Assembly: GCA_003116975.1 (NCBI GenBank)
Contig: BGKB01000088.1
Span: 62,001-126,000, forward strand
DNA length: 64,000 nt
Reading direction: 5' to 3'
DNA from: Aurantiochytrium sp. KH105
Taxonomy: Eukaryota; Sar; Bigyra; Thraustochytrida; Thraustochytriidae
This document shows positions 1,629 through 52,281 of this stretch, piece after piece; within the stretch, counting starts at the first letter, position 1, and every line of letters starts with the position of its first letter. Position numbers and translations under genes: made by a program. Below the pieces are notes generated by a model. It saw only the letters and a program-made list of their open reading frames with translations. It was not told the origin of the DNA and did no database searches.

Positions 1629-3161
1629 TCAATACTCGGAGCGCAAGTGCTTGCTGCGCGTGTCACGCTCGGCCTCGACCTCAGGGTCTCGATGACGCTT
1701 GTCGCTGGTGCTGCTCCGACTGGAGGAATCGGCGCTGTCGTCATCGTCGTCGTCGTTTTCGCCATCCTTGCTCTGATCGTCAGGTGTGCCAAAAGTTGGT
1801 TCCGTTTTGCAGTCCTTGAGAGCGTGCATGTTCTTTGTGTACGCGAGGATACCGGCAAACCACTGGAAGAGCTTTGTGAGAAGCTGCTTGGGGTCCGTAT
1901 TGTGCATCTGACTAAAAAAGTCCAAAAGGGGCCAGGTACCCATCTGGGGAACCTTTGCCAAAGATTCCATAATGGTGAGGGTGAGGTCCTCGTTTTTCCA
2001 GACAAGCTCGAGCGCGTGGCGTACGTGGGGCACCGAAACCTTGTTGTACTTTGGAAAGTGGTTGCGGTTCTTCTTGTTCTCGGGCCACTGCATGTAGATC
2101 TTGCACTCAGCCAATGGCCCAGCGAGTGAGGCCCATGCTTCCGCCACCTCGGGGTTCGCCTCGGCATCGACTTTGTACTTTTCAATTGCAGTCTCCATCG
2201 CTGACGACGTATTGTTGCTGGGCATGGGCGTCTCGATGATACTCTGCACAAAGCAACGAAGATGGCGGAGCGTTCCATCGGTCGGGAGGGTGGGGCGGCG
2301 AGTCCTTTGCACGTCTCTGATACCCCGAAATACAGAAAGTAGCGCCTCGGAGTACTGCGTGGTGGAAAGCATGCGCGATTTTGTGCTCTCGGACTTGGTG
2401 TGAAGGTACCCGGGAAGACCACGGAGCGCGCGGTGGAAAAGTCTCTCGAGAATTACGTCGCTAACAGGGAGCTGGTTGCCCTCGCTGCTGACTCGGGACA
2501 GCGAGGCGTTTACCGTGGTGCTGTTGTGCGGCGCCGATGCAATTCGCATCGCTTGAAGGCTGTCTTGGGAAAGGGCTGAGCCGCGCTGTGAGCCAGTTAT
2601 TGACGGCGGGGGACAGGAAGGAGGGACTGGCGCCCTATTGTTTGGAGTAAAATGAGTGTATTGGGACGTGGGGCATTGCGGAAACGCTGTATCAGCAGGA
2701 AGATGGTTGGCCGGGTGAATCTGGGCTCCTCCGTTCATCATCGGGTACGACCGAGACATCTGGTTCATCTGAAAGCAGTTGTCATTAGAACGGGCCATTC
2801 GCTGTTGACAGGCTCCAATGTTGCGGGTCTCCATTCCAGGTATTATCTCGTTCGCATAGTACATGGTTTGGACTTCGTGCGGAGGTGCAAGTTTGTACTC
2901 TTGGTTCGCCAAGCGACCGAGCTGGTCTGCTAGACCACCGTTTTCAGTAGTCTCCTCGCTTTGATTATGATGACTGTCCATGGTGGGCAGGTATGGCTCG
3001 TATGAGGACTCGAGCTTGACGCCCCTCTCGTGCTGGGCAAAGTCGTCAAAGTCTGCTGGGGCTGGTTCAAGTCCTGATCCTGGTGCTTGATCTACTCCAG
3101 CTCCAGGTCCGCCGCTGCAACCGTAAAAGCCCTGCAGAGTGTCCACCTCGACAGCAAGCAT
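1629..3161 (-). CDS. Family gene A: acidic N-terminus, helical domain, basic tail
   Basis: A 510-residue protein of unknown function and the first member of the five-gene family in this window. The start is taken at the ATG at 3161 (MLAVEVDTLQGF). An in-frame extension to 3317 exists, but it runs through a TTTGC simple repeat and looks untranslated. Residues 1-60 are acidic with aromatic residues (DFDDF) and include a VKLE stretch that fits a sumoylation consensus. Residues 60-240 are Asn/Gln/Ser/Pro/His-rich and probably disordered. Residues about 270-445 are helix-rich and end in LFQWFAGILAY, which matches the terminal helix of genes B-E. An Asp-rich run follows, then a basic tail (KRHR, RSKHLR). 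Compared with the others it has Phe where C, D and E have Cys in the terminal helix. No catalytic motif is visible. A nuclear regulatory role is inference only. Confidence 0.75.
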   Translation of the reverse strand: MLAVEVDTLQGFYGCSGGPGAGVDQAPGSGLEPAPADFDDFAQHERGVKLESSYEPYLPTMDSHHNQSEETTENGGLADQLGRLANQEYKLAPPHEVQTMYYANEIIPGMETRNIGACQQRMARSNDNCFQMNQMSRSYPMMNGGAQIHPANHLPADTAFPQCPTSQYTHFTPNNRAPVPPSCPPPSITGSQRGSALSQDSLQAMRIASAPHNSTTVNASLSRVSSEGNQLPVSDVILERLFHRALRGLPGYLHTKSESTKSRMLSTTQYSEALLSVFRGIRDVQRTRRPTLPTDGTLRHLRCFVQSIIETPMPSNNTSSAMETAIEKYKVDAEANPEVAEAWASLAGPLAECKIYMQWPENKKNRNHFPKYNKVSVPHVRHALELVWKNEDLTLTIMESLAKVPQMGTWPLLDFFSQMHNTDPKQLLTKLFQWFAGILAYTKNMHALKDCKTEPTFGTPDDQSKDGENDDDDDDSADSSSRSSTSDKRHRDPEVEAERDTRSKHLRSEY

Positions 3162-3221
3162 TCCTTGAGACGCCTTGAGGCTCGCTTGCTGATATGTGAA
3201 TGAATGGAATTCGCTTTTCTC

Positions 3222-3490
3222 GCTGCTTTGCTTTGCTTTGCTTTGCTCGGCTCGCTCGTTACACCGCACGAAAGTCTTCGCGGAACGGAAAAAGGACGCT
3301 CCAGAGCGCGCGTGCAACTCGGCCTCTCTCCGCTCTAACCCGCTGCGCGCGGTTCTCGACGAACAGCGCAGCGTCTGGCAGTAGTCCTTCGCAACGGCGC
3401 CAAGGGAGCTTTGCTTTGCTTTGCTTAGCTATGCTTTGCTTTGCTTTGCTTTGCGATGGGTTGCTTGCTTGCTCTGCTTGCTCGCTTGCC
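3222..3490. repeat. TTTGC pentanucleotide repeats (two clusters)
   Basis: Short runs of (TTTGC) occur at about 3222-3248 and again at about 3407-3454, the latter decaying into TTGC tetramers. They lie just upstream of gene A's start, in its probable promoter or 5'-UTR. Confidence 0.8.
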
Positions 3491-10888: not shown

Positions 10889-11416
10889 ACGAAAAGCGAC
10901 CACTGACGGGGATCTTTTTGATAGCGGCCAAGGAAGGCAAGTCACATGGGCAGAACGACAACGAGCAAAGGAGGAACTCGAGCGCCAAGGCAGACGCGCA
11001 AGGGCCTCGCAGCGCGCGAGATCTGCAGACTGCCGGACGCCAGTGCCGCTGCCGCCAGTGCCGCTGTCGAGCCGAGCCGAGCCGAGCCGAGCCGAGACGA
11101 GCCGAAGCCTGTCGCGGCCTGGGATTTGTCGTCATCGTTCGTTCATCGTTCATCACCGAGCCCCTCGGCACGTCGACATTTCCGAGACAGAGCGTCGCCC
11201 GGGGACTAGGCAAGGAAGGAAGGCGGCAACGCGCGCGCTGCGGCGCGGGCCTCGGTGCGAGCTCCAGAGTGGGCTTGACGCGCCGCGAGGCTTCGCATCG
11301 AGACGAAGCAAGCAAACGAACGAACGAGTGGTCGTCGAGAAGCGACGAACGTTCTCCCGCGAACTCGATACGCGAAACAGCAGGCTTGCTACGGCACGCT
11401 CGCGCTTGTGAACATC

Positions 11417-14400
11417 ATGAACGACGATGAAAACCTGGACTTTGATGCCTTAGATGAAAGATTCTTCCGGGACGACGATGCTGGCTTAGTTGACGGAATC
11501 TTCGCAGGCGGGAACTCTGCCGACGGGGACTTTGCAGGCGGGAACTCCGAGAATGCTTTTGCAACAGACAACGGTGAGGGCTACCAAGACTCTGCGCACG
11601 AAAGTACTTTCGACATCCATGCCAAAGAAAACATCTTCCTCCAAGTGCCGGTGCAGGCGTCTCACACGCAAGTGCATCCTTGGCCGTCTCATAGCACGCA
11701 CACGGACCAAGATTTTTTTTCTCAACCTCATTATCAGGCGCCTCGTCAACACCTTTCGCCGTTACCCTACCCACCTCATGCAACGCGCATTCCTTTCAAG
11801 GCGCAAAACCAATTTGTCTCGCCGTCGTACCACGCGCGGCATCCTCCTCTTGCTTCAGCCGAGCACGGGGGGCAAATCGACGGTCTGGGCGCTTCTCTCC
11901 TTCATCATAACGCAATGGAAATCCATGAACACAATCTCGTGCAGCAGGATCCCCCAATAGATCCTTTCAAACCTGGCGCTCATGGCTTGGAAATTCGAGA
12001 CACAACGCAAGGCACACTTGCGAATCCTGATTTTGCAACACAGGAGAATGAGTTCCCGCAGCAGCACCAGCAGCACCAGCACCAGCACCAGCACCAGCAC
12101 CAGCAGCAAGACAAGGTCTCATCGCCAGAGCGCGCAGCCCCAGACTCGATGCGTCCGCCGTCGCCTCTCTGTGTTGCCAACGCGCATTACGGTCAAGTTG
12201 AGGAACTTGTACGCAACATCGTCAGCCGTTCGTCAACGGTCGATGTCATTCTCCAGTTCATCGTTGAGGAGGGAAAGGGCAGCTCTCAAAGCACAATGCA
12301 TCGCAACAAGACCATCTCTACGCTCACCAAGCTCACAATGGACACCTTGGAGAGAATTGCGCATCCTGGGTTAAACGCTTCCCTCGACGAATTTACCGAA
12401 GACGACGTTCATGCAATGGCTGAAAATCTTAAGCACGTCGTTAGAATCGACGCAAGTTCCATACATGGTAGCTCTGCATCTGAAGAGCCCAAGCGCAAGA
12501 CGAAGCAATCAAGACCGGAAAGGGACGATTGGCAAGAATTTATCATTTATAAACTCCAGGAGCTCAATAGAAAGCCGCACCTGCGCAACCTGTGGCTTTG
12601 CTATGGTGGGATTCCCCGACAATCGGATCCCTTGTATTCTTCCTATAAACTGGCACGCCAAGACGCAGCATCATTTAGTCCGTTCCGTGAACTCCTCGGC
12701 AACTTACGCAGAGCGTTCAAGGAGGAGCGCAGCCACTCGGAACTCTATGACGTGCTCGTGATGCTCGCTCTCAAATTCAAACAGCGACGCATGTATCCAG
12801 AAATTGGTCAATTTTTCATTGATCTCGACACGAGCGCACGGGGTCATGTTTTGAATGCCTTCACAGAATGGATTGCAGCCATCTTTTACAAGCAAGTTTT
12901 TCCTCATGAGGCGCCCGAAAAAGATGCGATCAAAGTCGATTCTTGCAAGAGAAATGCGCATTCTCATCCGGACAACCCGCAGCACCAAGGTGGGGATCGA
13001 AACAAGCGCGCCCGTTTCGGCAACGTCTCGGAAGATCAGCAGACACAAACGACCGACGGCTATACGCCCAATCACGCCCTGGCGCTCGCCTGGCGCTGGG
13101 GTCTCCACTTCGTCATGTCCCTTTCGATCTTGGCTTGGATTTGTGCAAGCGCGCTGTGGGCTCATACTTTCGACCGCGTCTTGTTGTTCTTTTCAAAGAC
13201 GCAAAATATCGCTCTCCCGCCCCCGGATGTCGATGCTGACCCTCAAGAGAAGCCAACGAAAGAAGACTCCCAAGGTGCAACAAGCGCGAGTGCTGCAAGT
13301 GCAAACATAGTGGAGAATCACAGCTTGCCAAATGAAGCAACACTAGGTTTGTATGCCAACTTGCATACTCTTACAGAGTCAGCAAATGGTGGCGTAGTGG
13401 AGAACGTCGAGGACGACAGCGACGGCAGCGAGGACGGCCGAAGTTATGATTCTTCACTCACAGGTGCGAGCAGTTCGTGCTGCGGAAAAGTGGAGTGTAG
13501 CCTTGCCAAAGACTCGATTGGCGTCAGTGTCCATTTCCTTCGTCTTTTCGCTCGCCTTGCAGCGAATGGAGCGCTCTCAACCCGCCAGGTCGTGCAAGAC
13601 ACCGTGATGCTTTTCCACACTGCGCAAGATCACGGCGGGTCCCAAGAATCTCTGTCGAGCCGTCGCCGCCGCCGCAGAAGGAACAGTGCCAGTAGCCGGA
13701 ACAGTGCCAGCAGCAAGAGCAGCAGTAGAGCTGAGGATGAGACAAATGGGAGCTTCATCTCCTTTGTCAAGTCCGATCGAGGTCGCTCGCTCACAGAAGC
13801 GCTTCTTGTCCAGGCTGTGACGCCAGCCGAAAGAGATTACAAGCGCTGGTTTGGTCCCGCAACAAATTATGTTTGCCACGCCTGGGACGCGCCCTTTCCC
13901 GGCCTTGTAGAGTCTCTTGCGGGAACCTGCCAAGCGGGCTCGTTCTTTTGGATCGACATCTTCTCCGGCCCTCTCGTCAAAGCGGAGGAGGACGACGCCC
14001 TCACGGACCCGGAGAAGGCGGACAGCCTCGTCGAAAAAAGCGTCAGAAATACCATTCGCACGGCGCCCGGAGATGTTGTCGTCGTTGTCAACAATTGGCA
14101 GAAGCCGCGACTGCTTGAACGGAGCTGGTGCTGGTTCGAGATGGCAATTGCGCTCGAAGAAGGTAAAGGCCTTCGCATGGCTCTCTCCAGAGACACGCAT
14201 GACAGCCTCTACAAGTTTCTCTTGGCATGCATGAGCAGCAATGACACTTCCGTGCCGGATAGCTGTCACGCAGCATCGCTTGAGGCGTTACGCAAGCTGA
14301 TGGGCCCTGAAACTTCCTTTGACAAGAGCTCGTGCTCGCGGCCGTCCGACAAGCGAATGCTTGCGAGCTATTTTCAGAACCGCAGTCACGCTTTGTTGCC

Positions 14401-16120
14401 ACCCGAAGGCAGGATTAAGACGGCCATGTTGGAGCTTTTGCTCGAGCCCGCGGGCCGACATCTTGAAAAGCACCAGCAGAGTGCTGACCCGATCTTTTTC
14501 CTGTCAAGCATTGCCTCATCCCTCGATCCGGTCAGCGAGGCCGCGGCGACGCTGTTCCTGATGCCCAGGCTCACGGGTCGGAACTATCACAGGGCTATCG
14601 ACGGCAATCTTTTGGATGCGAACATTGGCAAGCTTCGCGCAGAGCTTTCGCGCCTGAATCAGATCATTGACGCAAACAACCCGCTGAGGGATGGCACGGA
14701 TGTTGCCGAAAGCGGAAACCGTCTTGGGCGCGTCGAAGACGAAGAGCCACGTGCCGAAAATGCTCGTCACAAGAGGCGGCTCGAGTCCGACGTGCGTATG
14801 CTCATTGAACGCTCGCTGGCACACATGCTCACAAGCAAGGGGCGAATGCTCGGAGATAAGAGACGCGACGCTCGAGCGGTCGATGACGCGGTGCGCTGCC
14901 ACAAGGAGGCTATTGCGATCATGGATCGTCTCGACGATCCAGCGCTGTCCAAAGCTCAATACCATTTGGCCCGCGTGCTCATCGATCACCACTTTACCAT
15001 TGCTAGACGCCATCGTGCTCACCGTTCCATCCAACCGGACTTGAACATGGCCGAGAAAGCGCTCTCGGCGTCGATCCAGACGCAGGAGTCGAGGGCGCCG
15101 CAGCCGGCTTCCCTTGGCGCTGCGTACGCGCTCCGCGCCAAGCTAAGCAACTTGCGAGGCAAGGGAAGCGCTGCGGCACAAGAGTATTGCGAGAAGGCGC
15201 TCGAGCTCCAGACTGCACGCTATGGACCTGGCGACCCTCGCTGCGCCACCACGGTCGCATGCCGCGGCAGCAGCTACTACTGGCATGAAAAGTTTGGCAA
15301 CGCGCTCGCTTGCTGGCGGCAAGCGTTTCGCGACCTCGCCAAGGACGGCATTGTGACCAATGGCGGTGGTCTCAATCTGCGAGCGCTGCAGGTGCTTGAC
15401 CAGGTCTCTCTGGCATACCGTCGACTTCGCGAGGCTCGGTCGTGGCCACAAGAGGAATACTTTGCCCAAGAGGTTAGCTTTGTTCGGGATGAGGTCGAGC
15501 CAGCCCTCGTCGAGGGTCTGTGGGCCGATGTCGAGACCTGTGAATCAGGCTCGCTTCTCCTCTCAGACCTTACGCACTGGACGATGACGACGCTCAAGCG
15601 TGTCCTCGTGCTGGATCCTCGTGTCGATCGAGCAGAGTCGTTATCTGCCATGCTGACGGGGGTGTCGGCTCACGTGCAAGTCGTGCACGACCTCAAGTCT
15701 GCGAGTCATCTTCTCAAGGCGCATGTTTACGCCTTTGTGCTCGTCGCCGATGCCCTTTCGTTCCAGCCACCCCAAGAGCACCATCAGCACGAGGAAGAAG
15801 TGGCTAAAGAGGAGGAGAAGGACGAGGAGAACAAGTTCTTTTTAGCCTTTTACGCAGCTCAGCACGAGCTCGCCGCACAATATCCTTCCCGCCCGCACAC
15901 CGTTGTGCTCCAGTACGCCACAGAGGACGCCAACATCAGGCACCCCACGCAGCTCTTCGGAGGCGGTCCCAGTAAGGCTGCTGACCTCCCTATCGAGCTC
16001 ATGACCCGCTTTTCCAAGATGGCGACGTCTTCCTGGGACCCGAATGCTTCCGAACCGCTAACGCGCCGTCACAGCATCCGCCACAGCATCCGTTTCCGCA
16101 TCGATAGAGACGAAGACTGA
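11417..16120 (+). CDS. Family gene B: helical domain, hydrophobic segment, TIR-like, TPR and receiver-like protein
   Basis: Protein of 1,567 residues. The start is the ATG at 11417; a GTG three codons earlier was ignored. Rough layout: residues 1-40 acidic/aromatic (LDFDALDERFF); 40-240 disordered with a His/Gln run coded by CAG/CAC at 12058-12106; 250-500 the family helical domain ending FTEWIAAIFY; basic NKRAR near 530. A hydrophobic segment at about 555-590 (LHFVMSLSILAWICASALW) could span a membrane. An acidic linker and an Arg/Ser stretch follow. Residues about 798-945 form a TIR-like domain of the type found in protist KLC/TPR proteins, with WFGPATNYVCHAW, FFWIDIFS, VVVVNNW and SWCWFEMA. 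The Glu in the last motif sits where TIR NADases keep their catalytic Glu. KLC-like TPR units fill about 1130-1330, and residues about 1390-1445 resemble a receiver fold (RVLVLDPR, YAFVLVAD). It is a tandem paralogue of gene C. Function is unknown; signalling is inference. Confidence 0.85.
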   Translation: MNDDENLDFDALDERFFRDDDAGLVDGIFAGGNSADGDFAGGNSENAFATDNGEGYQDSAHESTFDIHAKENIFLQVPVQASHTQVHPWPSHSTHTDQDFFSQPHYQAPRQHLSPLPYPPHATRIPFKAQNQFVSPSYHARHPPLASAEHGGQIDGLGASLLHHNAMEIHEHNLVQQDPPIDPFKPGAHGLEIRDTTQGTLANPDFATQENEFPQQHQQHQHQHQHQHQQQDKVSSPERAAPDSMRPPSPLCVANAHYGQVEELVRNIVSRSSTVDVILQFIVEEGKGSSQSTMHRNKTISTLTKLTMDTLERIAHPGLNASLDEFTEDDVHAMAENLKHVVRIDASSIHGSSASEEPKRKTKQSRPERDDWQEFIIYKLQELNRKPHLRNLWLCYGGIPRQSDPLYSSYKLARQDAASFSPFRELLGNLRRAFKEERSHSELYDVLVMLALKFKQRRMYPEIGQFFIDLDTSARGHVLNAFTEWIAAIFYKQVFPHEAPEKDAIKVDSCKRNAHSHPDNPQHQGGDRNKRARFGNVSEDQQTQTTDGYTPNHALALAWRWGLHFVMSLSILAWICASALWAHTFDRVLLFFSKTQNIALPPPDVDADPQEKPTKEDSQGATSASAASANIVENHSLPNEATLGLYANLHTLTESANGGVVENVEDDSDGSEDGRSYDSSLTGASSSCCGKVECSLAKDSIGVSVHFLRLFARLAANGALSTRQVVQDTVMLFHTAQDHGGSQESLSSRRRRRRRNSASSRNSASSKSSSRAEDETNGSFISFVKSDRGRSLTEALLVQAVTPAERDYKRWFGPATNYVCHAWDAPFPGLVESLAGTCQAGSFFWIDIFSGPLVKAEEDDALTDPEKADSLVEKSVRNTIRTAPGDVVVVVNNWQKPRLLERSWCWFEMAIALEEGKGLRMALSRDTHDSLYKFLLACMSSNDTSVPDSCHAASLEALRKLMGPETSFDKSSCSRPSDKRMLASYFQNRSHALLPPEGRIKTAMLELLLEPAGRHLEKHQQSADPIFFLSSIASSLDPVSEAAATLFLMPRLTGRNYHRAIDGNLLDANIGKLRAELSRLNQIIDANNPLRDGTDVAESGNRLGRVEDEEPRAENARHKRRLESDVRMLIERSLAHMLTSKGRMLGDKRRDARAVDDAVRCHKEAIAIMDRLDDPALSKAQYHLARVLIDHHFTIARRHRAHRSIQPDLNMAEKALSASIQTQESRAPQPASLGAAYALRAKLSNLRGKGSAAAQEYCEKALELQTARYGPGDPRCATTVACRGSSYYWHEKFGNALACWRQAFRDLAKDGIVTNGGGLNLRALQVLDQVSLAYRRLREARSWPQEEYFAQEVSFVRDEVEPALVEGLWADVETCESGSLLLSDLTHWTMTTLKRVLVLDPRVDRAESLSAMLTGVSAHVQVVHDLKSASHLLKAHVYAFVLVADALSFQPPQEHHQHEEEVAKEEEKDEENKFFLAFYAAQHELAAQYPSRPHTVVLQYATEDANIRHPTQLFGGGPSKAADLPIELMTRFSKMATSSWDPNASEPLTRRHSIRHSIRFRIDRDED
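12058..12106 (+). repeat. CAG/CAC coding repeat (His/Gln tract of gene B)
   Basis: Alternating CAG and CAC codons inside gene B give a mixed Gln/His run. Probably length-variable between strains. Confidence 0.85.
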
Positions 16121-17121
16121 TGCGACGGACTAACCAAAGGACGCTTGTTGGCCGTGTTCTTTTCTCTTTCCCTTTTTTGCTGCCCCCGCCGCTGAGGCTT
16201 GCCGGCCTCCGATTCTTTGATAAATGAACCATGTTGAAAACTCTACCAAATCCGGCCAATCTTCCTGCGCCTCGATGCCTCGCTGCCCCGTGGCCGTGGC
16301 CGCCGCCGGGCCCGCCGCGGCCACGTGCCGTCTCGCGTAATATCCTAGTGTATCACGAAAACTGGGAAATCGTGATACAATCAGCCCGCTCGGTTCGCGG
16401 CCTGCACCGCATCCGCCTTCCAGAACCCACGCCGGCTTCTGCTCCCGCGCCCGCCGCTCCCGTCGCGCCGCGCCTCGCTCGCGCCCGGCGCGCGTCCCCG
16501 CTCTCCGCCCTTCGCGCTGCGCCGCGCTCCTCTGCCGCCGCTGCCGCGCCACTCGCATCTTTCGCGCCGCTGTCCGTCGCCTCCCGCTCTCCCCTCCCCC
16601 ACACTTTCCACACTCCATCACTCCCACACCCCTCCCTCTTTCTGCTGCGGGCCGAAGACGCGGCGCGTCCCTCGCGCCGTGGCCCCACAGCGGGGGTGTG
16701 CGCGGCGGCCCTGCTGCCTCGACCGTATTCGACTTTCATGTGCAAGCGGGTCTGCGCAGACGGCGGCGCGGCAGACCCGCAACAACAGCAACAATCGATC
16801 GATCGATCGATCGATCGATCGATCGACCCGGCCATCGAGCACCGATACGCGGAGACAGCCTCCGCTCGGCGGCCCGACCGATCGTCCCGCGCGGAGGCCG
16901 GCGGCGGCGGGCGCGAGGCGCGCGCGCGCGGCTGCGGCGCGCGGCGCGCGATCGAGCAGGACCGGACGCGCGAGGAGATCAGGCGGCGGCAAGGAGGAGG
17001 GAGCGCGGCTACGACGAGCGCGAAGACGACCAGGAGCAGGAGCTGCAGGTTCTTCGAGGCAGGGCGAAGGGGGGCGAGCGAGGACGTGAGCGAACGAACG
17101 AAGAAAGGAGTTGCGAACGAC
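16121..17121. other. Spacer between tandem paralogues B and C
   Basis: About 1 kb of very GC-rich DNA with a pyrimidine-rich middle (16560-16640) and a GATC repeat. Gene C's frame stays open back to 16231, but the predicted peptide is Pro/Ala/Arg/Ser-biased with no resemblance to gene B's N-terminus. I therefore treat it as promoter and 5'-UTR. Confidence 0.6.
16795..16828. repeat. GATC tetranucleotide repeat
   Basis: Perfect (ATCG/GATC) tandem run of about eight units. Each unit is self-complementary. It lies in the 5' flank of gene C. Confidence 0.9.
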
Positions 17122-20100
17122 ATGAGTGCGAGCGAGGCGACGATGCCCACGCAGCACCAAGACCGCGACGAGGGTTTTGGTGAAGAGCTCGATTCGTCAT
17201 TTCTTAGCGACTTGGACGGTTTTCCAGACTCTTTAATTGATCACGATTCGTCTTCCATTCCTCGGGAGGCTTCGGGCGACGCGCAGCATTCCGCACAAGA
17301 GCAAAACGGCCTAATCCAACGGGTCGACACTGTCCCCGGCGGAGCGCCGGTCCCCAACCATTTATGCTCGCATCCGGCAGAAGATGGTGATACCGATACC
17401 GACCCGCTTATGATCGAACCTCCAGGTCCCTCAATTCCTATGGAGAACGGAGCGGATACTGGCATCGTGCCTTCATATGGTGATACCGATGCCGACTTGC
17501 CTGTGTTCAAAGATTCGGGTGACCAGATCCAAACAGGGGACGACGGCATTTATGATGGGAATCACAGTCAGCTTCCCTCAAATCAAGGCGTTCCACCCTA
17601 CTCCTCTGTTTCTGGAACGCCTTTTGCCCCATCAGAAAATCCCGTCTCCAATAACTTTAACAATGCGGATGAAGTCATTGCTGGCGGCGAGATGCTCACC
17701 TCTCCAGATGCGCCTAGCATTGCATCAGCTGCACATTATCCTCCCAATGAACCCGCGAATCTCGACTTGTTTCGCGCGGGTCAAAATGAAGGCTTCGCAG
17801 GCGAGACTGTGGATCAGGGTGTTGCGGCCTACGCGCAAGTTCCCCACACGCCAGGCGCAGAGACCGAAGCAAGCGAGACGCAAAGAACGGATCCGGGTTC
17901 TCCACGTGTCTCCGAACCCGGTGGAGCGTACAATCATCACTTTCGCGTGCACGATTTTCATGCAAACGCAGGCGAAGACGATCCGCAACCACCGTTCAAT
18001 TTTCATGATGGTGTCGAGGAGACCGTTGGCGGCCATGTCCAGGTATCCGGGCCTTGGAGCCCAAGCCAGGAGAGCAATGAAAGTGAAAGCTCAGCGGGGC
18101 TCCCCGATACGCCTCGTTTCGAGGATCCTACGCCTCATTTTGAGAATCTTATGTACGAAGCGGAAACATTTTTCAAGCATGCCAATGAGGTCAAGGTGAG
18201 GGCAATCGAAGAGCGGTACGAGATATTGCACCAAGACAGAAGCCCTATACCTGATAGTCGTCGCCGAGACCTCCACCGCGTGTTAGCGCCCATTCTTGCC
18301 TTGCTGCAAGTTGGAAACGACCAGCGCAATCCTCCTGAGTCATTTCCCGACATCAGCGATCATCTTAAGTACTACATTGTGCGGTTGGTGTTCGACGCAA
18401 ACACAAAGGGCGCAGTCCTTCAAGCAATGCGGGAAACCCTTCGACCCCCTGAAAAACCTACCTCAAAGAATGCCTTTACACAGGCGGTCGTTCGGGCTCT
18501 CGGTGAATTGATCTCCTATCCCATTGCGGCCACTCCTCTAAAGAACGAGTGGATCGCGTGGGCAGATCCAGACATTCCGGATAGGCAACTTCGCGCGATC
18601 GAAGCAGAGGCGGAAAATACGCCCCAGGTGAGAGCCCCGTATGCTTTTCGGAAAGACGGGAATCAATTTGGCGTGGCTAGTGCACTTCTCGGAAAGTACA
18701 TCTCGTGGAATCCCACGGGAAACGAACAGAGCAACATTTTTAGAGGTGCTGAAGTGTTCCTCGATTTTGTGAAAACCAAAAAGGGAGCGTCGTGGGATTT
18801 ACGGGTTATCGCCAAAATTTTGGCAGAGCAGCATCGCCGCAAGCTGTCATATCACCTTGCGAGATGGTGCGCGGCCGTGCTGTTCACGGAAGCGGGAGAG
18901 ATTCTCCCAAAGATGCGCAACGTTCTCAAGGTCTGGCTTGATGGCATCTTGCCGTTATCACCCAAAGGCAAGAAGAGAGGTCGCGACGGTTCGACAAGCC
19001 CATCCTCGTCGGACACCAAGGGTAGTCGCTTCGCAAAGCAGGCTCGTGGAGCCGCCGGGGCAGTCAACAGCGTCTTGAGCCTCCTTCGCAGCTCTGTCCT
19101 CCGCCTCTTTACGAACCTTTATGCCGCCGCGGGCATGGTTATCTCACCTTTAACAGGTCTGCTGCCCTCTTCTGTGACAGGCCGCGTGGATCCAAAGGAC
19201 GCTGCGCGGAAGGCGCTTCGCCCCGAAGGCGCGCATGGCGTGAGTTCGGAGTTCCTTGTACTCTTCGATCGCCTCTTGAGCAGGAACGATGCGCTGGATG
19301 ACGACGATGGCGACGACAATAACGATGGAGGGGACAAGAGAGACGCATTCAAGGCCGGGGCTGTGCTCAGCGAGATTTGTAAGGCTGCTCCGCAGGGATC
19401 TTCCGCCGCGAGTCTCAAAGAGTTTGTTTTATCCGAAGCTGGCAAAGACTTTCGCGAAGAGCTCGTGAGCCTGGCAAGAAGTGCTGCTGAGCGGGAGGTT
19501 GAGAAGTGGTTTGGACTTGCAACGAACTTTGTCTGCTATGATCCCCAAATGCCCTTTGCAAAGGTGTTGGAAGGGCTCACGCTCGCGTCCGGCTCTCGGA
19601 CGTACTGGTGGATTGATATTTTCTCCAACTTCGTCGGTTCACAGAGCAAGGCCGACGCTTCAACTCGAATGACATCTTCGGATGCTGTTCGTGCCACCGA
19701 TAACTTTACGATTGTTATCGACAAGTGGCAGGACCCGGCCGTCGGTCGTCTCGAGTCATGTCGTCATGAAATTGCACTCGCCGTTGACGAGCGCAAGCCG
19801 CTGCGCGTTGCCATGTCGCAAAGGGTACGCAGTGAACTCGATCGCTTCAGTAGGGCATGTATGAGTGCCAAGAATGAAGAAAAGGAGGAAGGAAAAGAAG
19901 ATGACGATGGCCAGGGCCCGGGGCAAGACGATGCGGACGTTGACGCTGACTTTGACGAGCTGGGCACCTCTCTTGGCGTTCATGGCAAGCGCCTGGTCGA
20001 AAGCAAGTCGGCGACGAAGCAAGTTGACCTGAAAACACGTCTCGCAATCATCTCCGTTGTCCTTGAACCTGCGATGGAAATGATTCGCCAACACAAGGGC

Positions 20101-21486
20101 AACGTAGATCCTTCAAGGATGCTCAATGCGATCGAGGCTAACGTCGTCAAGGGAAATCTGGATGTGGTCGACGCCGCCAACGCCTTTGTGGCCCTTGCGC
20201 CAGCCTACGTTATCCAAGGAAAGACGGAAGAAGGCATTCGAATGCTTCGGCGCATTATGGACCGAGTGGGCGCGGAGTTGCGCGCTGAAGACCGCCCTTC
20301 GCGCAGACGCCTCGCCGACCTCGAGAACGTCCTGGGTCGGGCTCTCTTCAGTATCGGCCGCTTTTACTGCGACTCCTTCAGCGGGGATGAGACGGTTGCT
20401 TGCGCTGATCTCTGCTGCGATGAGGCGATCGCGATTTTGCGCCGATGCGACGACCCTCTCCTTGCCAAGGCACAGTACGTCTTGGCGCGCACCCTGGTGA
20501 ACTGTCACATGTCCATCACAACGTTTTCGAGTCGCGAGAGGGGGCCGGACGTACAGAAATCAGAGAAGGCGCTCGACGAGGCGATTCGCAGCATGGAGGA
20601 TGACAAGGTCCTTCAACCTGATCTTGGCGCGCTCTACGTGCATCGTGCCAAGCTTCTCGATCTCAAGGACGCCGACCCGGCCGAGGTCGAAGCGGACTTT
20701 GAGAGAGCCCTTGAGGTTCAGGTCGAGCTTTACGGCCCAATGGATCCGCGCGTCGCGCTCACTACGAAATGCCGCGGCCAGAGCTGGTACTGGCGAGGCA
20801 AGTACGAGAAGGCACTCTTTCATTGGGGCCAGGCGTTTCCGAGGATTTGCGATGGATACAAGATGAAGTCAATCTCAGCCTTTCACGTCTTCAAGATCTT
20901 TTACTTCACGGCCATGGCCTTTGACAAGCTGCGCCAGGAGAAACCGGAGATGGCCAACCAGGAGATGGACTTTGTCAAGGTCACGGCCGAAAAATACTTT
21001 GTGGAGCTCCGCGAAAAGCTGCGCAAAAACCTTGAAGGCAGCTATCCCACGGAGGCGCGCCGCTGCGACGAGGTTGGCTACGATTGGGTTGCCTCCGCGC
21101 TGCGGCGCGTCCTCGTCATTGACGCTGACGAGACGCGAGCCACGCAGGTCGAGAAAGCGCTTGTTGTTTCGGATAATGTTGACGTCGTCAAAGACGTGGA
21201 GGCGGCCCGAGTCAATCTCCAGAAGCACGTGTACGCCATCGTCTTTGCAGCTGGCGGTGAGGACGTATTGACCGAGACGGACTTGGCTCTGGAGCCAACC
21301 CCGGCCGTCATTGATGGCACCAAGCGCCATCGCCCCCAATTCTATCGATATGGGAACAGCGCTGAGGGTGCCGAGGTGCACGACGTCGATAGTCTGCTGG
21401 ATCTCACCAAGGAGACCTTTGCGACCATGTCGCAGCGGCTCACTCAAGGCTTGGTCCCGGTTCCCGCGCCCGCGTTGACTTCTTAG
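17122..21486 (+). CDS. Family gene C: helical domain, degenerate TIR-like, TPR and receiver-like protein
   Basis: Protein of 1,454 residues, starting at the ATG at 17122 (MSASEATMP), with the same order of parts as gene B. The acidic/aromatic N-terminus contains LDSSFLSDLDGF. A long disordered acidic region reaches about residue 330. The family helical domain occupies about 345-592 and ends ARWCAAVLF, followed by KGKKRGRD. An amphipathic or hydrophobic stretch at about 645-685 stands where B has its hydrophobic segment, but it is weaker. The TIR-like domain (about 791-905) keeps WFGLATNFVC, WWIDIFS and VIDKW. It has lost the His-Ala-Trp of B and the Trp-Cys pair, reading ESCRHEIALA, although the Glu remains. 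KLC-like TPR units at about 1085-1250 include an acidic insert before them. The end has a receiver-like fold (RVLVIDADETRA, HVYAIVFAAG) without the expected acceptor Asp. It reads as a diverged tandem duplicate of B. Its partner or ligand is unknown. Confidence 0.85.
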   Translation: MSASEATMPTQHQDRDEGFGEELDSSFLSDLDGFPDSLIDHDSSSIPREASGDAQHSAQEQNGLIQRVDTVPGGAPVPNHLCSHPAEDGDTDTDPLMIEPPGPSIPMENGADTGIVPSYGDTDADLPVFKDSGDQIQTGDDGIYDGNHSQLPSNQGVPPYSSVSGTPFAPSENPVSNNFNNADEVIAGGEMLTSPDAPSIASAAHYPPNEPANLDLFRAGQNEGFAGETVDQGVAAYAQVPHTPGAETEASETQRTDPGSPRVSEPGGAYNHHFRVHDFHANAGEDDPQPPFNFHDGVEETVGGHVQVSGPWSPSQESNESESSAGLPDTPRFEDPTPHFENLMYEAETFFKHANEVKVRAIEERYEILHQDRSPIPDSRRRDLHRVLAPILALLQVGNDQRNPPESFPDISDHLKYYIVRLVFDANTKGAVLQAMRETLRPPEKPTSKNAFTQAVVRALGELISYPIAATPLKNEWIAWADPDIPDRQLRAIEAEAENTPQVRAPYAFRKDGNQFGVASALLGKYISWNPTGNEQSNIFRGAEVFLDFVKTKKGASWDLRVIAKILAEQHRRKLSYHLARWCAAVLFTEAGEILPKMRNVLKVWLDGILPLSPKGKKRGRDGSTSPSSSDTKGSRFAKQARGAAGAVNSVLSLLRSSVLRLFTNLYAAAGMVISPLTGLLPSSVTGRVDPKDAARKALRPEGAHGVSSEFLVLFDRLLSRNDALDDDDGDDNNDGGDKRDAFKAGAVLSEICKAAPQGSSAASLKEFVLSEAGKDFREELVSLARSAAEREVEKWFGLATNFVCYDPQMPFAKVLEGLTLASGSRTYWWIDIFSNFVGSQSKADASTRMTSSDAVRATDNFTIVIDKWQDPAVGRLESCRHEIALAVDERKPLRVAMSQRVRSELDRFSRACMSAKNEEKEEGKEDDDGQGPGQDDADVDADFDELGTSLGVHGKRLVESKSATKQVDLKTRLAIISVVLEPAMEMIRQHKGNVDPSRMLNAIEANVVKGNLDVVDAANAFVALAPAYVIQGKTEEGIRMLRRIMDRVGAELRAEDRPSRRRLADLENVLGRALFSIGRFYCDSFSGDETVACADLCCDEAIAILRRCDDPLLAKAQYVLARTLVNCHMSITTFSSRERGPDVQKSEKALDEAIRSMEDDKVLQPDLGALYVHRAKLLDLKDADPAEVEADFERALEVQVELYGPMDPRVALTTKCRGQSWYWRGKYEKALFHWGQAFPRICDGYKMKSISAFHVFKIFYFTAMAFDKLRQEKPEMANQEMDFVKVTAEKYFVELREKLRKNLEGSYPTEARRCDEVGYDWVASALRRVLVIDADETRATQVEKALVVSDNVDVVKDVEAARVNLQKHVYAIVFAAGGEDVLTETDLALEPTPAVIDGTKRHRPQFYRYGNSAEGAEVHDVDSLLDLTKETFATMSQRLTQGLVPVPAPALTS

Positions 21487-22530: not shown

Positions 22531-22792
22531 CTCTCCTCTCTCTCTGAAGCGGGTTCTTCTTCTTCTTTCGTCTTCTTCGACATTCTTCTTCTCCTTCTTT
22601 CTTTCCCTGGATCCAGCACAGCGCTCTCAATCGGCGCCGGACGAGCGCCACGCAGGCGAGCGAGCGAGCAAACCCCTTTCGCGCCGAGGTCCAGCTGCCC
22701 GCGGGCTGGCCGGAGGCTCGCTTGCTCGCTTGCTCGCTTTCTCGCTCGCTCGCGTGAGCGAGCGAGTGGGACGCGCTGCGGCTAGGACGAGC
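21487..22792. other. Spacer between genes C and D
   Basis: No convincing gene. It contains a duplicated segment of about 32 bases with a 42-base offset (21712 and 21754, beginning GCACTTT) and a long CT repeat near the start of gene D. Small Cys-containing minus-strand frames here come from the duplication. Confidence 0.6.
22487..22548. repeat. CT dinucleotide repeat upstream of gene D
   Basis: Long (CT)n run with a short TTTT break, about 250 bases before gene D's start. Probably promoter or 5'-UTR. Confidence 0.9.
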
Positions 22793-24007
22793 ATGGAGGA
22801 GGAGCACCGCGTGCACGATGAGGACAACGAGGTGCGCGGGTTCGACCTGGACTTCTTCGCTGATGAGGACCACCGGCAGCACGACGAGGCGTACCTTGAG
22901 CAGCAGCGGCACCCGGGTGAGCGACGTGTGCCCGCAAGCACGAGTAGCGAAGGTGCTGCTGGGGCAGCTGCTGCTTCTACTGGCGGCAGCGGCGGAGGAG
23001 GAGAGCGCGAGACGGACAACGTCTCGCAGGAATTCTTTGATACTAGTCTAAATAGAATTCTGAAGCTTCGAGACGCAAAGCTCACGAGCGAGCCGACGCG
23101 AGGACGGAGCGAATCGCTCAGGCAACTGGTGGATTGCGTCGCGCCGATCGTGAAATCGCTGCGAGCTGTATACTCTGCACATGCAATTAATGAGGGCCCT
23201 TTCATTATCCCCGAGACCTTGAAGGTATTGATCCATCGTCTCGTTTTCAAGGCCAAAAAAAGCTCGTCAGAGAACCTGGCGGAAAATTTGCAGAATCTAG
23301 CTGACCCCTGGTTGCCGCGACGCTCCTCGCACTCGCAAATGACAACGGCGGCACCGTCATCGGCGACTTCGCCGTCACCATCTACGTCGCCAATCGCACC
23401 CACACCTTCGCCGCCCCACTACTCTGGTACCGCGTCGCCTTCGCCATCGTCCAGACATGGCCGAGGACAGTCTTCTTCTGCAAGCGATCTCGGAAAGCCA
23501 TGGCAACTCGAGGTTTTGCGTGAACTTTACGAGCTCTCGATCCACCCGGAATATAAGACTACATGGCTGGGTCGAGGCTTGCCTCGTTTCCAGGATAGCA
23601 TGAACACAGGCCACGGGCGGCAAGATGCTCAAATCTTCACCAAGACGCGCGGCCTCCTCGACGCGCTCACAAGCGAATTTCGCCAGGACAAGTCTATTGA
23701 AGATCTCAAGGACACTGTCAGAGTTTACATGCTTCAGATCAACTGTGCGCAAATCCTCTACAAGCTGGCGTATCTCTTAGTTGTGGACGGCAACAGCCTC
23801 ATTCTGAAGCAGTTCACGCAGTTCTGCGCAGCTGTCCTCTTTGAGCAATATAACAAGGATTGTGCGGATCCCCTTAAGGCCATCATCGAATATGGCGGAA
23901 AACGTAATGCTCCGGAGGGATTCCGAGCAGCGGACTCAGGTCGACCAGGCAAGCGCTCGCGGCTCCGCGTCACTACTTCCGATTCCATGGACAGTGTTTT
24001 ATCATAG
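22793..24007 (+). CDS. Family gene D: acidic N-terminus, helical domain, basic tail
   Basis: Protein of 404 residues, starting at the ATG at 22793. The N-terminus is strongly acidic with aromatic residues (FDLDFFADED). A Gly/Ser/Ala linker with an Arg-Glu stretch follows. The family helical domain runs from about residue 105 to 355, split by a Ser/Pro/Thr-rich insert at about 180-235. It is closest to gene C: both carry an L-x-x-x-I-x-RLVF-x-A segment in the first half, and the terminal helix FTQFCAAVLF matches C's ARWCAAVLF. The protein ends soon after a basic KRSRLR. It thus looks like the N-terminal third of gene C without the TIR-like, TPR and receiver-like parts. A donor-like GGTGAG near 22916 means a small intron in the linker cannot be excluded. 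Confidence 0.75.
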   Translation: MEEEHRVHDEDNEVRGFDLDFFADEDHRQHDEAYLEQQRHPGERRVPASTSSEGAAGAAAASTGGSGGGGERETDNVSQEFFDTSLNRILKLRDAKLTSEPTRGRSESLRQLVDCVAPIVKSLRAVYSAHAINEGPFIIPETLKVLIHRLVFKAKKSSSENLAENLQNLADPWLPRRSSHSQMTTAAPSSATSPSPSTSPIAPTPSPPHYSGTASPSPSSRHGRGQSSSASDLGKPWQLEVLRELYELSIHPEYKTTWLGRGLPRFQDSMNTGHGRQDAQIFTKTRGLLDALTSEFRQDKSIEDLKDTVRVYMLQINCAQILYKLAYLLVVDGNSLILKQFTQFCAAVLFEQYNKDCADPLKAIIEYGGKRNAPEGFRAADSGRPGKRSRLRVTTSDSMDSVLS

Positions 24008-35031: not shown

Positions 35032-38000
35032 CTATTTGCTACCGTCCTTATCCTCTTTGACATACGTCTTACGGAACTCGTTGGCGTCCATGGGAAACAT
35101 GATCGGGTGGTGAAAACGTGTGGCGCCGAGAATCCGCTCGGGAAGCTCGTCCTCAGCGGTCGACTCAAAGAGAAAAGCAAGATCCAGGACCATCGACGTC
35201 GCGTACGACTTCACCACACCCATGAGACTTTCCGCAACGGTCGAAGAGCCAACGTCGACGCAAATCTCAAAGTGATTGTCGCCGCGATAGTAATCGGTCT
35301 GAATCTTGCGACCGAGGATCGCCGGTTTCGAACCAATCGCGCGACGGGCAATAAAATAGCCCTCAGGTACGCTCGGAATGATCTTGAAGCGCGAATTACG
35401 GTACGCGTCGTCTGCTGAAATAAACTTCTCAAGCATTCGGTCAAACTTGGCGTCCTTCACACCTCGCCGCTTCGCAAAGTACGCCACCATGTTCACACCC
35501 TCTCCACCGCCCAAGGGCACAGCGAAATTCAACACCATCAAAAACGGCCGATCCTTGCGGCCCACGTGCTGCTTTTGGATAAGCTCATCCTTGTCAGCCG
35601 AAATATGCTTCTTCGCGCCGTGATAAAACGACCATTGACAGGCGACCAGCTCCATTGCCGAAACTTCTGCAGGAACTTTCACACCATCAGAAAGATACGT
35701 CGGTCCGCGCACCTTATGGTAACCTTCCAGCGAGCCTGAGTCTGAGACGGCCGTCTCTTGAGTCTTGCTCTTATCCATGGGAACAAGGTAATTATTGTCG
35801 TGCGGAATCGAATACTCGTAGTTCAGGTCCTCTTTCGTAGCATTTCCCGCGCCCACTTCCGCCTCGGACTTTGACTTCTTGCCCTCTTGCTCGTCATCCT
35901 CGTCGCCCTGATTCTCATTATCGTTCTCTCCCGATCCGTCCTTGTCGTTCTGCTTGACCGCTTTTTGGTCCGCGCTCCCGCCCTCGTTTCCGTTCTGCCC
36001 ATTGGCCTGCTGACTCGACCCTTGATGTTCCTTGGAGGTCTCCTCGGGGCCTGGCGACGCATCGGAGGGTTTCTCGTCACTCGACTGTTCCGCCGTCGCC
36101 GAGGGCGATGCAGCGGGAAACTTGAGCGCATCCTGGTACGCCTCGGCCGACTTGGTGTATCCTTCAACGAGGTTATCCACTGGGTACATGAGCGGGCGAT
36201 GCATCCTGCACCCAGTCATGAGAACCTCGGGCAATTCATCAGGGTCCTGCGACTCAAAGAGAAAGGCAAGATCGATGACCAGGCTCGCTGCATAGCGCTT
36301 AACCAGGCCCATGAGGCTGCCAGCAACCTTGCTCGAGCCAACGTCCACGCAAATTTCGAACCAGTTCTCGCCTTGATAGTATTCCGTGGTAATCTTCTTG
36401 CCCAAAATAGCTGGCGTGCTGCCGATGCCCCTCTTTGCAATGTACGAGCCCGAGACCACGTTGGGGATGATTTTGAAGCGCGAGTTCCGGTACTCGTCAT
36501 CGCCAGCGATAAACTTCTCGAGCATGCGATTGAAACGCGGATAATCCACGGTGCGACGTTTCACCATGTACATGACGTAATTGCCAATGGTGGGCACCAT
36601 AAAGTTGATGACCATCATAAACGGACGGTCACTTCGCCCTTCGTGCTGCATTTGCACAAGTTCTTCAGGATCGCGAGCAATGTTGCGCTTTGGTTGGTCG
36701 AAAAACGCCCACTGGATCTGCACCAGCTCCATGGCGGACGTCTGATTGGGCACCTTGACGCGGTCTTCAAGATACTTGGGACCCCGTACATTCCAGAACC
36801 CAACCTCGATGCCGGAGTCCCACCACGCTGACTCGCCTGATTTCGAAATATTCATTGGAATCAAAAAGTTGTTCTTTGGAACACCGTACTCGTAGTTGAG
36901 GGCTGTCTCCACTTCTCCATTGCTGTTACTGCTACCACTGATCGAGGTGGCGTTAGCCTCTGCACCAGACGGAGCTGCAGAGGCGGACAGGGACGAAGAT
37001 GAGGGCGACGATTGGCCCTTGCTGGAACCCTCCATGGATGTCAGCGACTTGTCTTCGGGACCCATAGCCTGACCCTTTTGCGATTGCTGTTCCTGTGATT
37101 GCTGTTGAAGGAGACGACGCGCACGCTGGATCTCACGCTCGTCGTCGCTGAGATCTTTGAGCGTGTGCGCGAGCTCACGAATGACGCCAATGAGTGCGAC
37201 GGGATCGCGTAAGAGCGTAGCGTTGGCCAAGACGGCCTCGTCCAGCGCGTCTTGCAGCTCGCACGCAAATGGAATGCAATGGCTATGCGCCACAGGATCT
37301 CGCAGACTCGGAGGTGCCTCGCCAAGCTCCTTGAGCTCACCCAGACACGACACCATGGCCACGGCCTGCGATCTTGCCAAGGGCCGCAGGAACTGAAGCC
37401 ATCCGCCGAGAGCCACGCGAAGGCCGAGAACGACCTTGGAGGTGCCAGCACGACCAGGCGTGATGGTAGCGAACATGTACTCGAGCGAAGCGTCCGGCAC
37501 CGTCACCGCAGCGTGTGGGCTTGCACGCATGGAAATGATGTATGTCCCGGAGCTCTCGCGACACCAGTAGCGACTGACTCCAAGACGGCGGCACTGTGCG
37601 CCCCGTCCGCACGAGTACTCGAGCGTGAGGCGATCGTTGTGGGCGTCGATGATTTCGTCGAGCGTTCCACTCACAAAGGTGGGGTCCCATGCGCGCCGCG
37701 ATTTGCTAATGTCCATGAGCATTGCAAACACCTGCGTCGGGTGACCGCTGACGACGGCGTGCGAACGCACCTCGCGGGCCCCGACAAGATCGTCAATCTG
37801 CGCATTCACGTCGGTTGCGCTGTTGCCGGCAAACTCCGTGTTGAGCTCGAAAATACGCATGCCCTTGGTACAGAGCTGAAGGCGCCAGCCTTCAAATTCA
37901 GTGACGGCATCTGGCCCAATGCGAAGCTCCCGGGCGAGATAAAAGTAGTCTGGGGCGCGACCGTACTCGGCGTTGGCCTCGAAGCTGTCGTCTATCTCGT

Positions 38001-38553: not shown

Positions 38554-39671
38554 CCGCGCCTCTCCGCCTCGCGTCGCCTCCTCGCGCGCGACGCGCGGTC
38601 CAGCGACCGGCCGACCAGCCGGCCACAACGCACGCGGGCGCGCCGCTGCGTCTCCTCGCGCGCGCTCCTTCGCCGCGCCGCCGCAGGTGCTTGCGGGTCT
38701 GCGGCCTCGTCGAACTTTTGCCAATCTTCGACGCCGCTTCTCCTTCTTATCTTCCTTGGCTATTGACCGTCGATGATCGTCGCGCCTACGTGCGTCTTGC
38801 CCTCGGTCGCTCGAGCTCCAGCTTGCGAATCCACGGCATTCCGCTTCTACTTCTACTTTTGCTTCTGCTTCGACGAGGACGCGAGCGACGTGCGCACGCC
38901 CGTGCACGATTGCGGGCGCATGCTCGCTCGTCTTCGCCGACTCCGACTCTGGCCGCGAGTCTCGGCGCCGACCTGTTCAGCCAGAGGCTCCACTGGTCTA
39001 TGTTCTGAGCAGCTCTGCCCCGAAAAACCTCGAAGCCGAGGCCAGCGGCAGCACATATCCGCGGAAAGAACTGCGCAGGACGCGCCGATCGTGCAGCCAC
39101 GAAGGAGGACGTCTCGCGAAGACGTAACACGGGTCGACGTCGTGTCTGTCGCGGAAGGCCTTGGAAAGATGAGCACGTCAACCAGCTGCAGCTGCAGCTG
39201 CAGCTGCAGAACGGATGTGTGAAAGATGTGGGTGCGCGATGACGAGCTCGTCACCTCACATAGCCAAGGCCATGTCACTGCACCGTCGACATGCTTCTCC
39301 ACGCTCGCGACTGTGCGAGAGTAGCAGCTGGCCGCCAAAGCCATGCTCGCTATGCCTCGCGGCATGCACGGTGGCCGAACGCAAAGGCCCAAAGAAGACC
39401 CGCCACGCAATGCCATGCACACCTTGCATGGCATGCACCGCGTGTCCCACTGCGTCCCAGCTTGCAATCTATCTTTCCGGAGACTGGCTCTTGGCGCGGC
39501 TACGTGGGTGGAACGACAGCGTTTGAGCAAGGGGCTGCACAGCACAGAAAGTTCGCCTTTTCACGACTTTGCAGTGATAACAATGACCGATGATAGCCAC
39601 TGCAACCGCAGGACCGAAAGTATCGTCGATCTCAGCTGGCTCGAAACGAGATACACCGGCAGATAAAGAAG

Positions 39672-52035: not shown

Positions 52036-52281
52036 CGTCCCTCGCTCGTCGATCTCCGCGCGCACGAGCTCGCTCGCGGCGCCCTGCGCCCTCGCGCTTG
52101 AGTCTCTGCTCTCTCAAATTCCGTCAAATTCGCCACGCAAATTCAAACTCGCCCAGATTTCAAACCTCTGCCCTGCCTCCCCTCCGCCGCTCGCCGCCGC
52201 GCGCCGCCGCGCCGCGGCCTGCCGCCGCTTCCTCGCGTGCGCTGCCGCGGCGTGTCGCGCGTCGTCGCGGTGCTTCGAGGT

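Follow-up and report, generated by a model that had tools for sequence, protein, structure and literature searches.

The window analysed here is a stretch of 64,000 nucleotides from Aurantiochytrium sp. KH105, positions 62001-126000 of contig C88 (BGKB01000088.1) in a genome of 76 Mb and 367 contigs. It carries two successive genes, B and C, for long fusion proteins with one common order of parts: an acidic N-terminus, a helical domain shared with other genes of the window (the family domain), a basic stretch, a TIR-like domain, TPRs of the kinesin light chain (KLC) type, and a receiver-like C-terminus. The same architecture is present in eight further open-frame copies—the T copies—on contigs C133 (three) and C282 (five). 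Genome searches also placed on contig C59 one partner each of B, C, and three stand-alone family-domain genes of the window (A, D, and E), at about 87-93% identity; we read C59 as the second haplotype of the window, and it holds an intact allele of both B and C. B lies in an open frame at 11408-16120 (+) with its ATG at 11417 (1567 amino acids, aa), and C in an open frame at 16231-21486 (+), which gives 1454 aa from ATG 17122. Their parts are listed below in window positions, with dN/dS denoting the ratio of nonsynonymous to synonymous divergence between the haplotypes.

11417-12166 (+): B, acidic N-terminus of low complexity, rich in Q/H towards its end; net charge -24 over 247 aa; dN/dS 1.13
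12167-12937 (+): B, helical family domain with a WIAAIFY motif near its end; related to D; dN/dS 0.96
12938-13051 (+): B, predicted basic stretch resembling a bipartite nuclear localisation signal; KR...NKRAR pattern
13091-13165 (+): B, hydrophobic, membrane-like segment; Kyte-Doolittle maximum 1.79 (C59 allele 1.92), a value that is not specific
13748-14242 (+): B, TIR/HET-like domain with a WCxxE motif; AlphaFold2 (AF2), Foldseek, and profile alignment with TIRs of the same genome
14435-15532 (+): B, TPR-like helical repeats, limits approximate; TPR_12 E=0.0024 (below the gathering score) and the fold of the C homologue
15575-15757 (+): B, receiver-like segment, beta1 to beta3 part; C-terminal profile alignment
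17122-18129 (+): C, acidic N-terminus; net charge -51 over 336 aa; start set by haplotype comparison
18130-18930 (+): C, helical family domain with a WCAAVLF motif near its end; alignment with T copies; dN/dS 0.92
18964-19065 (+): C, short basic stretch; KKR cluster without the bipartite pattern
19411-19875 (+): C, TIR/HET-like domain with SCxxE replacing WCxxE; multiple alignments; AF2 of low confidence here
20008-21060 (+): C, TPR-like helical repeats; AF2 model; Foldseek to LGN/KLC1 at E 3e-5 to 8e-4
21094-21450 (+): C, receiver-like domain, probably degenerate; strand/helix alternation in AF2 and response-regulator profile matches

Because this order recurs in the alleles and the T copies, we regard the fusion as genuine and B and C as single genes; a chance join of two genes appears very unlikely. 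The common domain order described for B and C in an earlier note on this DNA is hereby borne out. As a genome query, B found at least 39 places at E<=0.001—a lower bound, as all such place counts with B are, with 30 of 64 candidates scored—which comprise the C59 alleles, the full copies on C133 and C282, two incomplete copies (T282x and T69), and distant TIR-like proteins. The start of C was set at codon 298 of its frame because divergence between the haplotypes is non-coding-like before this codon (dN 0.66, dS 0.97) and low after it (dN 0.11, dS 0.15 for codons 298-633). B and C share 28% identity over ~860 aa, from the TIR-like domain through the receiver-like end. Two elements that the earlier note had given to both proteins hold in full for B only. 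The membrane-like segment is present in B (Kyte-Doolittle 1.79 at residues 565-583), not in C (1.34), and on the same scale is absent from T133a and T282e; the receiver strand of T copies, at 1.55-1.81, illustrates how unspecific the B value is. The basic stretch is bipartite in B and only a short KKR cluster in C.

The domain in the centre of both proteins is remotely TIR/HET-like, and not a proven TIR. We aligned 15 such domains (B, C, two T copies, and 11 further proteins encoded in this genome), in which seven columns are invariant; Cys and Glu of the CxxE motif are kept in 15 of 15 and the Trp of WCxxE in 12, including B, with Ser in C, T133a, and T282b. B, C, and the T copies match the 11 others at an hhalign P of 5.7e-16. 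All 15 match seven Pfam-positive TIRs of this genome at P=1.9e-5, which none of 100 column-shuffled controls reached (lowest 0.01) and which refers to a set of seven that includes two near-identical pairs; separately, B/C/T give 0.0012 and the 11 others 0.0044. The AF2 model of the B domain displays a fourfold beta-alpha order at a predicted local distance difference test score (pLDDT) of 56.6. In Foldseek, a plant TIR heads its list of matches (E 0.075, template-modelling score about 0.3), and TIR-type entries account for 16 of 50 among the matches listed (SPARTA or short-pAgo, RPP1, SNC1, RPPT, TIR-1), where we take the SPARTA, RPP1, and 8fex chains to be TIR carriers. A search of PDB sequences with the TIR-like profile found no TIR. 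HET (PF06985) had no match among the 15 domains and none in the genome, but no control genome matched either. Scans for viral and prokaryotic relatives, with one short peptide pattern each, gave 29 and 34 pattern matches, none of which was confirmed, and a viral fold search returned two matches at E<=0.001, both repeat proteins.

The consulted part of the literature on plant TIRs describes the Glu as required for NAD+ hydrolysis and a neighbouring Cys for 2',3'-cyclic nucleotide monophosphate synthesis (PMC9153377); Glu and Cys of the CxxE motif align with these catalytic positions. HET, in turn, is presented in part of another source as a fungal death effector of incompatibility that is remotely related to TIR, with homologues reported from stramenopiles (PMC4986451).

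Beyond this family, TIR_2 scores above its cut-off at 150 genome places or more (150 scored among 258 candidates, haplotypes counted apart), and PF01582 has 21 matches, one of them only together with its neighbours. Seven frames that were read presumably encode ankyrin-TIR or Roc/COR-like-TIR proteins. A very large TIR repertoire is indicated for this single-celled eukaryote; plant repertoires are comparable in size. One frame on C26 (116885-120109, -) encodes a protein in which the TIR-like domain shared with B and C and a set of TPRs are followed by a C-terminal N6/N4 DNA methylase domain (PF01555, E=2e-13), which carries DAPY in place of the DPPY-type motif usual in such methylases.

For the repeats, AF2 of C residues 634-1751 (13 sequences, mean pLDDT 54) gave TPR-like helices with block pLDDT values of 62-92 from residue 1323 and 33-62 before. 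Foldseek places LGN/Pins and KLC TPRs among 54 matches of this model at E<=0.001 (best 3.3e-5), and likeness in sequence to KLC1/KLC2 is weak (E 0.1-0.7). This corresponds to a KLC-type TPR array, weakly so by sequence; the earlier TPR call stands, as a KLC/LGN type, on these fold matches and the sub-threshold TPR_12. The same likeness in sequence and fold might suggest that B and C are KLC-like cargo adaptors, whose TPRs bind cargo or motor peptides while the other domains regulate transport. However, the LGN/Pins fold matches are equal or better, and the likeness is therefore one to the TPR class; the TIR-like domain and the basic stretch are moreover presumably not KLC parts. In kinesin light chain, it is an N-terminal heptad region that binds the kinesin heavy chain. 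We consider a cargo adaptor improbable.

The C-terminus is likely receiver-like, in the form of a degenerate "pseudo-receiver." Its AF2 model in C runs beta-alpha-beta-alpha-beta...beta-alpha, with pLDDT 75-88 over beta1-beta3, 46-66 in the middle, and 72-82 at the end. Compared with PDB sequences, the C-terminal profile drew five matches at E<=10—four response regulators (0.15, 0.22, 0.34, and 0.93), none of them significant alone, and one ribosomal protein (1.5). Compared with a profile of five E. coli receivers, it matches over beta1-alpha1-beta2-alpha2-beta3 at an hhalign P of 5.6e-5. The decoys were 20 single-sequence pieces (best 0.051), for which single receivers are the like-for-like comparison: OmpR (0.0004), PhoB (0.0035), and CheY (0.012) beat them, NarL (0.068) and CheB (0.34) do not. 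The Pfam model Response_reg matched none of 13 C-termini at E<=10. At what we take to be the phospho-acceptor Asp of CheY, the aligned column holds Ala; in the T copies an Asp follows two residues later (VASD), in B one residue later (VAD), and C has none near. A pseudo-receiver is likely because of this Ala and not proved, since an Asp adjoins in the T copies and B. Of the earlier calls for this half of the proteins, the receiver-like end is hence supported by profile matches and AF2, and weakly by single sequences, while the TIR-like domain gains remote support from profile alignment (P=1.9e-5), AF2 order, and Foldseek rows, with Pfam negative.

The family domain also occurs by itself in the window:

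1629-3317 (-): A, stand-alone family-domain protein; related to E
22730-24007 (+): D, stand-alone family-domain protein; related to B; allele on C59
32589-34445 (+): E, stand-alone family-domain protein with a Q/S-rich N-terminus that is not acidic (net +7); related to A

B and D are related at E 6e-10 (BLASTP) and 4e-12 (phmmer), A and E at 7e-8 by BLASTP without composition correction and at 0.0012 and 6.6e-6 by phmmer, and E has a weak direct match to one T copy (41%, E=0.04). Three hhalign links join the groups C/T, B/D, and A/E (P=1.4e-4, 2.5e-4, and 3.5e-3), each of which beats 100 of 100 column-shuffled controls (lowest shuffled 0.029-0.047). The links span 61, 39, and 29 columns at the domain end, around a [WF]-x-A-[AG]-hydrophobic motif. 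When A, D, E, and a single T copy served as genome queries, A to E (B and C included) and the T copies were recovered, plus some weak matches: those of A on C24 (E 0.015) and C13 (E 0.06) were read and rejected as a different protein, and those on C77, C184, C41, C68, and C21 (E 0.18-0.85) were not used. Pfam does not name the domain reliably. Among the alignment members, EAD8 appears in 2 of 11 (best 0.019), Death_3 in two, and GAT, SesA, and DUF2115 in one each; stray matches elsewhere are SIP1 in the B allele (0.0049), WT1 in A (0.085), and UL37 in D (0.21). We took these scattered weak matches as chance and rejected a Pfam assignment, although EAD8, Death, and SesA all belong to the helical adaptors found in conflict systems. 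A loose pattern picks out a basic cluster after the family domain in all but two (T133a and T282e) of the 17 family proteins, i.e., in 15 (12 bipartite, 3 single), and acidic N-termini are found in A, B, C, D, and all seven T copies measured.

These shared features—acidic N-termini in A, B, C, D, and the T copies, a basic cluster also in A, D, and E—would fit a nuclear regulatory or scaffold family, similar to transcription regulators, with no immune role. B, C, and the T copies would then bring this N-terminal half into complexes that the TPRs hold together, TIR-like and receiver-like domains would be interaction modules, and the N-terminal half would change fast by being weakly constrained and partly disordered. 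We regard this as a serious, if doubtful, explanation, only slightly less likely than the receptor model given below, and one on which the divergence rates bear directly.

Rates were obtained by the Nei-Gojobori method from one haplotype pair, with rounded counts and several tests uncorrected. In B, dN/dS is 1.05 for residues 4-505 versus 0.42 for 781-1470 (Fisher P=0.0035); in C, 0.81 for residues 298-900 versus 0.19 for 1061-1751 (Fisher P=5e-5). The family domain alone also differs from the C-terminal part of its protein (B 0.96, P=0.022; C 0.92, P=0.0003). Outside the B comparison lie the basic stretch (0.28), the hydrophobic segment (0.95, 4 changes), the linker (0.55), and the last 100 residues (0.73). 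The control, a gene at 42199-45219 (-) that we take to be urease-like, has 3 nonsynonymous and 39 synonymous changes between the haplotypes and a dN/dS of 0.02. Purifying selection acts on the TIR-TPR-receiver part in B and C, while their N-terminal part, the family domain among it, changes fast. In the stand-alone proteins, dN/dS is 0.28 (A), 0.55 (D), and 0.46 (E) for the family domains and 0.57, 1.09, and 0.19 for the N-termini; the family domains of A, D, and E do not differ from the C-terminal parts of B and C (P=0.32).

A nuclear scaffold is compatible with these rates in that none is shown to exceed 1 and the N-terminus of D changes at a rate like those of B and C. However, the fast part includes the helical family domain, which has a higher rate in B and C than in the stand-alone proteins (P=0.004), and both the invariance of Cys-x-x-Glu in 15 of 15 and the varying copy number between haplotypes speak against it.

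This varying copy number is seen at the second locus, where the eight T copies have stop-to-stop frames of 1191-1420 aa. The left flank of C133 matches the right flank of C282 (96% over 1.8 kb), and the right flank of C133 matches C69 (92% over 0.76 kb). In our reading, C133 represents one haplotype, with three genes, while the other is split over C282 and C69 and has five open frames plus T282x and T69; the flank comparison spans ~2 kb and the array is broken in the assembly, which makes five (plus two incomplete) a lower bound. Copy number of the tandem fusion genes thus varies between two contigs read as haplotypes. T282x, on C282, is interrupted by a stop, T69 lies near the C69 contig edge with its 5' part in another frame, and T282c bears no start codon at the usual place; these appear to be copies in decay or broken by the assembly. 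The incomplete T282x and T69 would be expected if the B, C, and T arrays were lineage-specific duplicates drifting without maintained function. Against such decay, dN/dS is 0.10-0.60 in B and C across the TIR-like domain, the middle, the TPRs, and the receiver-like part, and 12 other frames are open, alleles counted; we hold it to be very improbable.

Seven pairs of T copies show dN/dS values of 0.53-0.83 for the family domain, 0.20-0.40 for the TPRs, and 0.15-0.59 for the TIR part. Synonymous divergence in the family domain exceeds that of the TPRs in seven of seven pairs and that of the TIR part in six of seven. Along T133a/T133b, synonymous divergence is 0.60-0.66 within the family domain, falls to 0.36 where the domain ends, and lies at 0.05-0.31 beyond; amino-acid identity rises from 18-38% to 61%, drops to 38% across the linker, and then reaches 66-98%. 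This pair shows module exchange or homogenisation, of which other pairs give hints.

Recognition genes typically undergo copy-number change and module exchange, and for this reason we rank first, though tentatively and at somewhat less than even chances, that B and C belong to a small, tandemly duplicated, polymorphic protist family of intracellular receptor-like proteins acting as defence or incompatibility receptors. The fast N-terminal half would be the specificity or input side, with a binding partner that is foreign, self, or host-targeted; in view of the basic stretch, binding might take place in the nucleus. The TPRs and the receiver-like end would form a fixed scaffold. Upon binding, the TIR/HET-like domains might assemble and signal, either as an NAD+-cleaving enzyme via the invariant Cys-x-x-Glu or as an adaptor, with a defence or incompatibility response as the outcome. 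A role in defence or in allorecognition, i.e., self/non-self distinction, is what we infer from sequence comparison. What carries this model is the N-terminal half together with the TIR-TPR part, and not the receiver claims. The earlier note had likened the layout to an innate sensor with an N-terminal regulator and a sensing repeat region. Tandem copies in haplotype-variable number are in keeping with a polymorphic family of sensors; the division of labour that the note proposed might run backwards, with the N-terminal half fast and the TIR-TPR-receiver part conserved in B and C.

Several observations weigh against the receptor model. The near-neutral N-terminal rate, ~1 at most, is no proof of positive selection and fits relaxed constraint too, the D N-terminus (1.09) equals those of the fusions in speed, and B is only mildly constrained in its linker (0.55), in its middle (0.60), and over its last 100 residues (0.73). 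One T pair has a TIR-part dN/dS of 1.16, from few changes. The receiver part of the T pairs (0.38-0.67) is not clearly conserved and exceeds the family domain in two pairs; the conserved part in the T copies is therefore TIR-TPR and not the receiver. Window scans found no divergence switch in T133b/T282d or in C/T133b, the latter near saturation. Pfam TIR models match none of the 15 TIR-like domains at E<=10, no TIR-type Foldseek match lies at E<=0.001 (best 0.075), and Ser replaces the WCxxE Trp in C and T copies. The AF2 model of the family domain is unreliable (block pLDDT at most 42) and was not used.

A still more specific version is conceivable, though unlikely in all its parts: a switchless recognition class, in which a hypervariable, nuclear-type helical sensor and a TIR/HET-like effector would be joined to a platform of TPRs and degenerate receiver, with copy-number change between haplotypes and exchange of the sensor module ahead of a signalling half that stays conserved. 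If the receptor model is true, the family offers a concrete candidate for protist allorecognition or intracellular defence, whose variable and conserved halves are already mapped, and TIR-type signalling would be coupled to repeats without the nucleotide switch of NLRs.

Elsewhere in the window, the proteins of 35032-38907 (-) and 50947-52065 (-) have the block YYxG[ED]NxxEIxxDVGSSxVA in common, which occurs twice in the former; we assume both to be lipid-binding proteins of the START/DUF1336 type. In the genome, a PfaA-type polyunsaturated fatty acid synthase match reaches 930 bits, below the cut-off of 1010 bits; it hints at a thraustochytrid-like labyrinthulomycete, but sub-cut-off matches also occur in 11 of 14 control genomes.

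Among known systems, CheY-fold receivers resemble the C-termini of B, C, and the T copies in the beta1-alpha1-beta2-alpha2-beta3 profile match and in the modelled strand/helix alternation; the match covers about half of the domain and, unlike CheY, these C-termini bear Ala at the presumed phospho-acceptor. The genome also encodes KLC-like TIR-TPR proteins (on C46, C86, C13, C52 twice, C62, C179, C53, C65, and C59) whose TIR-like domain is the same as that of B and C; with the C26 protein, they are the 11 others that B, C, and two T copies match at P=5.7e-16. Their TPRs are canonical—TPR_12 lies above its cut-off in all seven scanned of these ten—and, when they were compared with B, its family domain and its receiver-like end had no match in any of them. 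NB-ARC scores above cut-off at two places elsewhere in the genome, and neither NB-ARC nor NACHT has a Pfam match in B or C at E<=10. A literature search across titles and abstract openings, with most subscription papers and preprints outside its coverage, named no such fusion. In the parts of the sources consulted, the nearest published architectures found are plant TIR-NBARC-TPR and fungal HET-NB-TPR proteins (PMC9806590, PMC9153377, PMC4986451). The plant proteins (TNP, XTNX) likewise combine a TIR-type domain and TPRs in one protein and agree in the position of the catalytic Glu (PMC9806590, PMC9153377), whereas B and C have no NB-ARC between TIR and TPR and add the N-terminal family domain and the receiver-like end. 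Fungal NLR-like HET proteins (NACHT/NB-ARC with WD40 or TPR; het-e, het-d, het-r), as far as the consulted part describes them, are alike in pairing a TIR-related effector with repeats in polymorphic genes (PMC4986451); B and C differ by the missing NACHT/NB-ARC match, by an effector that is internal rather than N-terminal, and by a variable part that is the N-terminal half. Given this missing match, B and C are not NLRs, and they might work most like HET- or TIR-repeat receptors.

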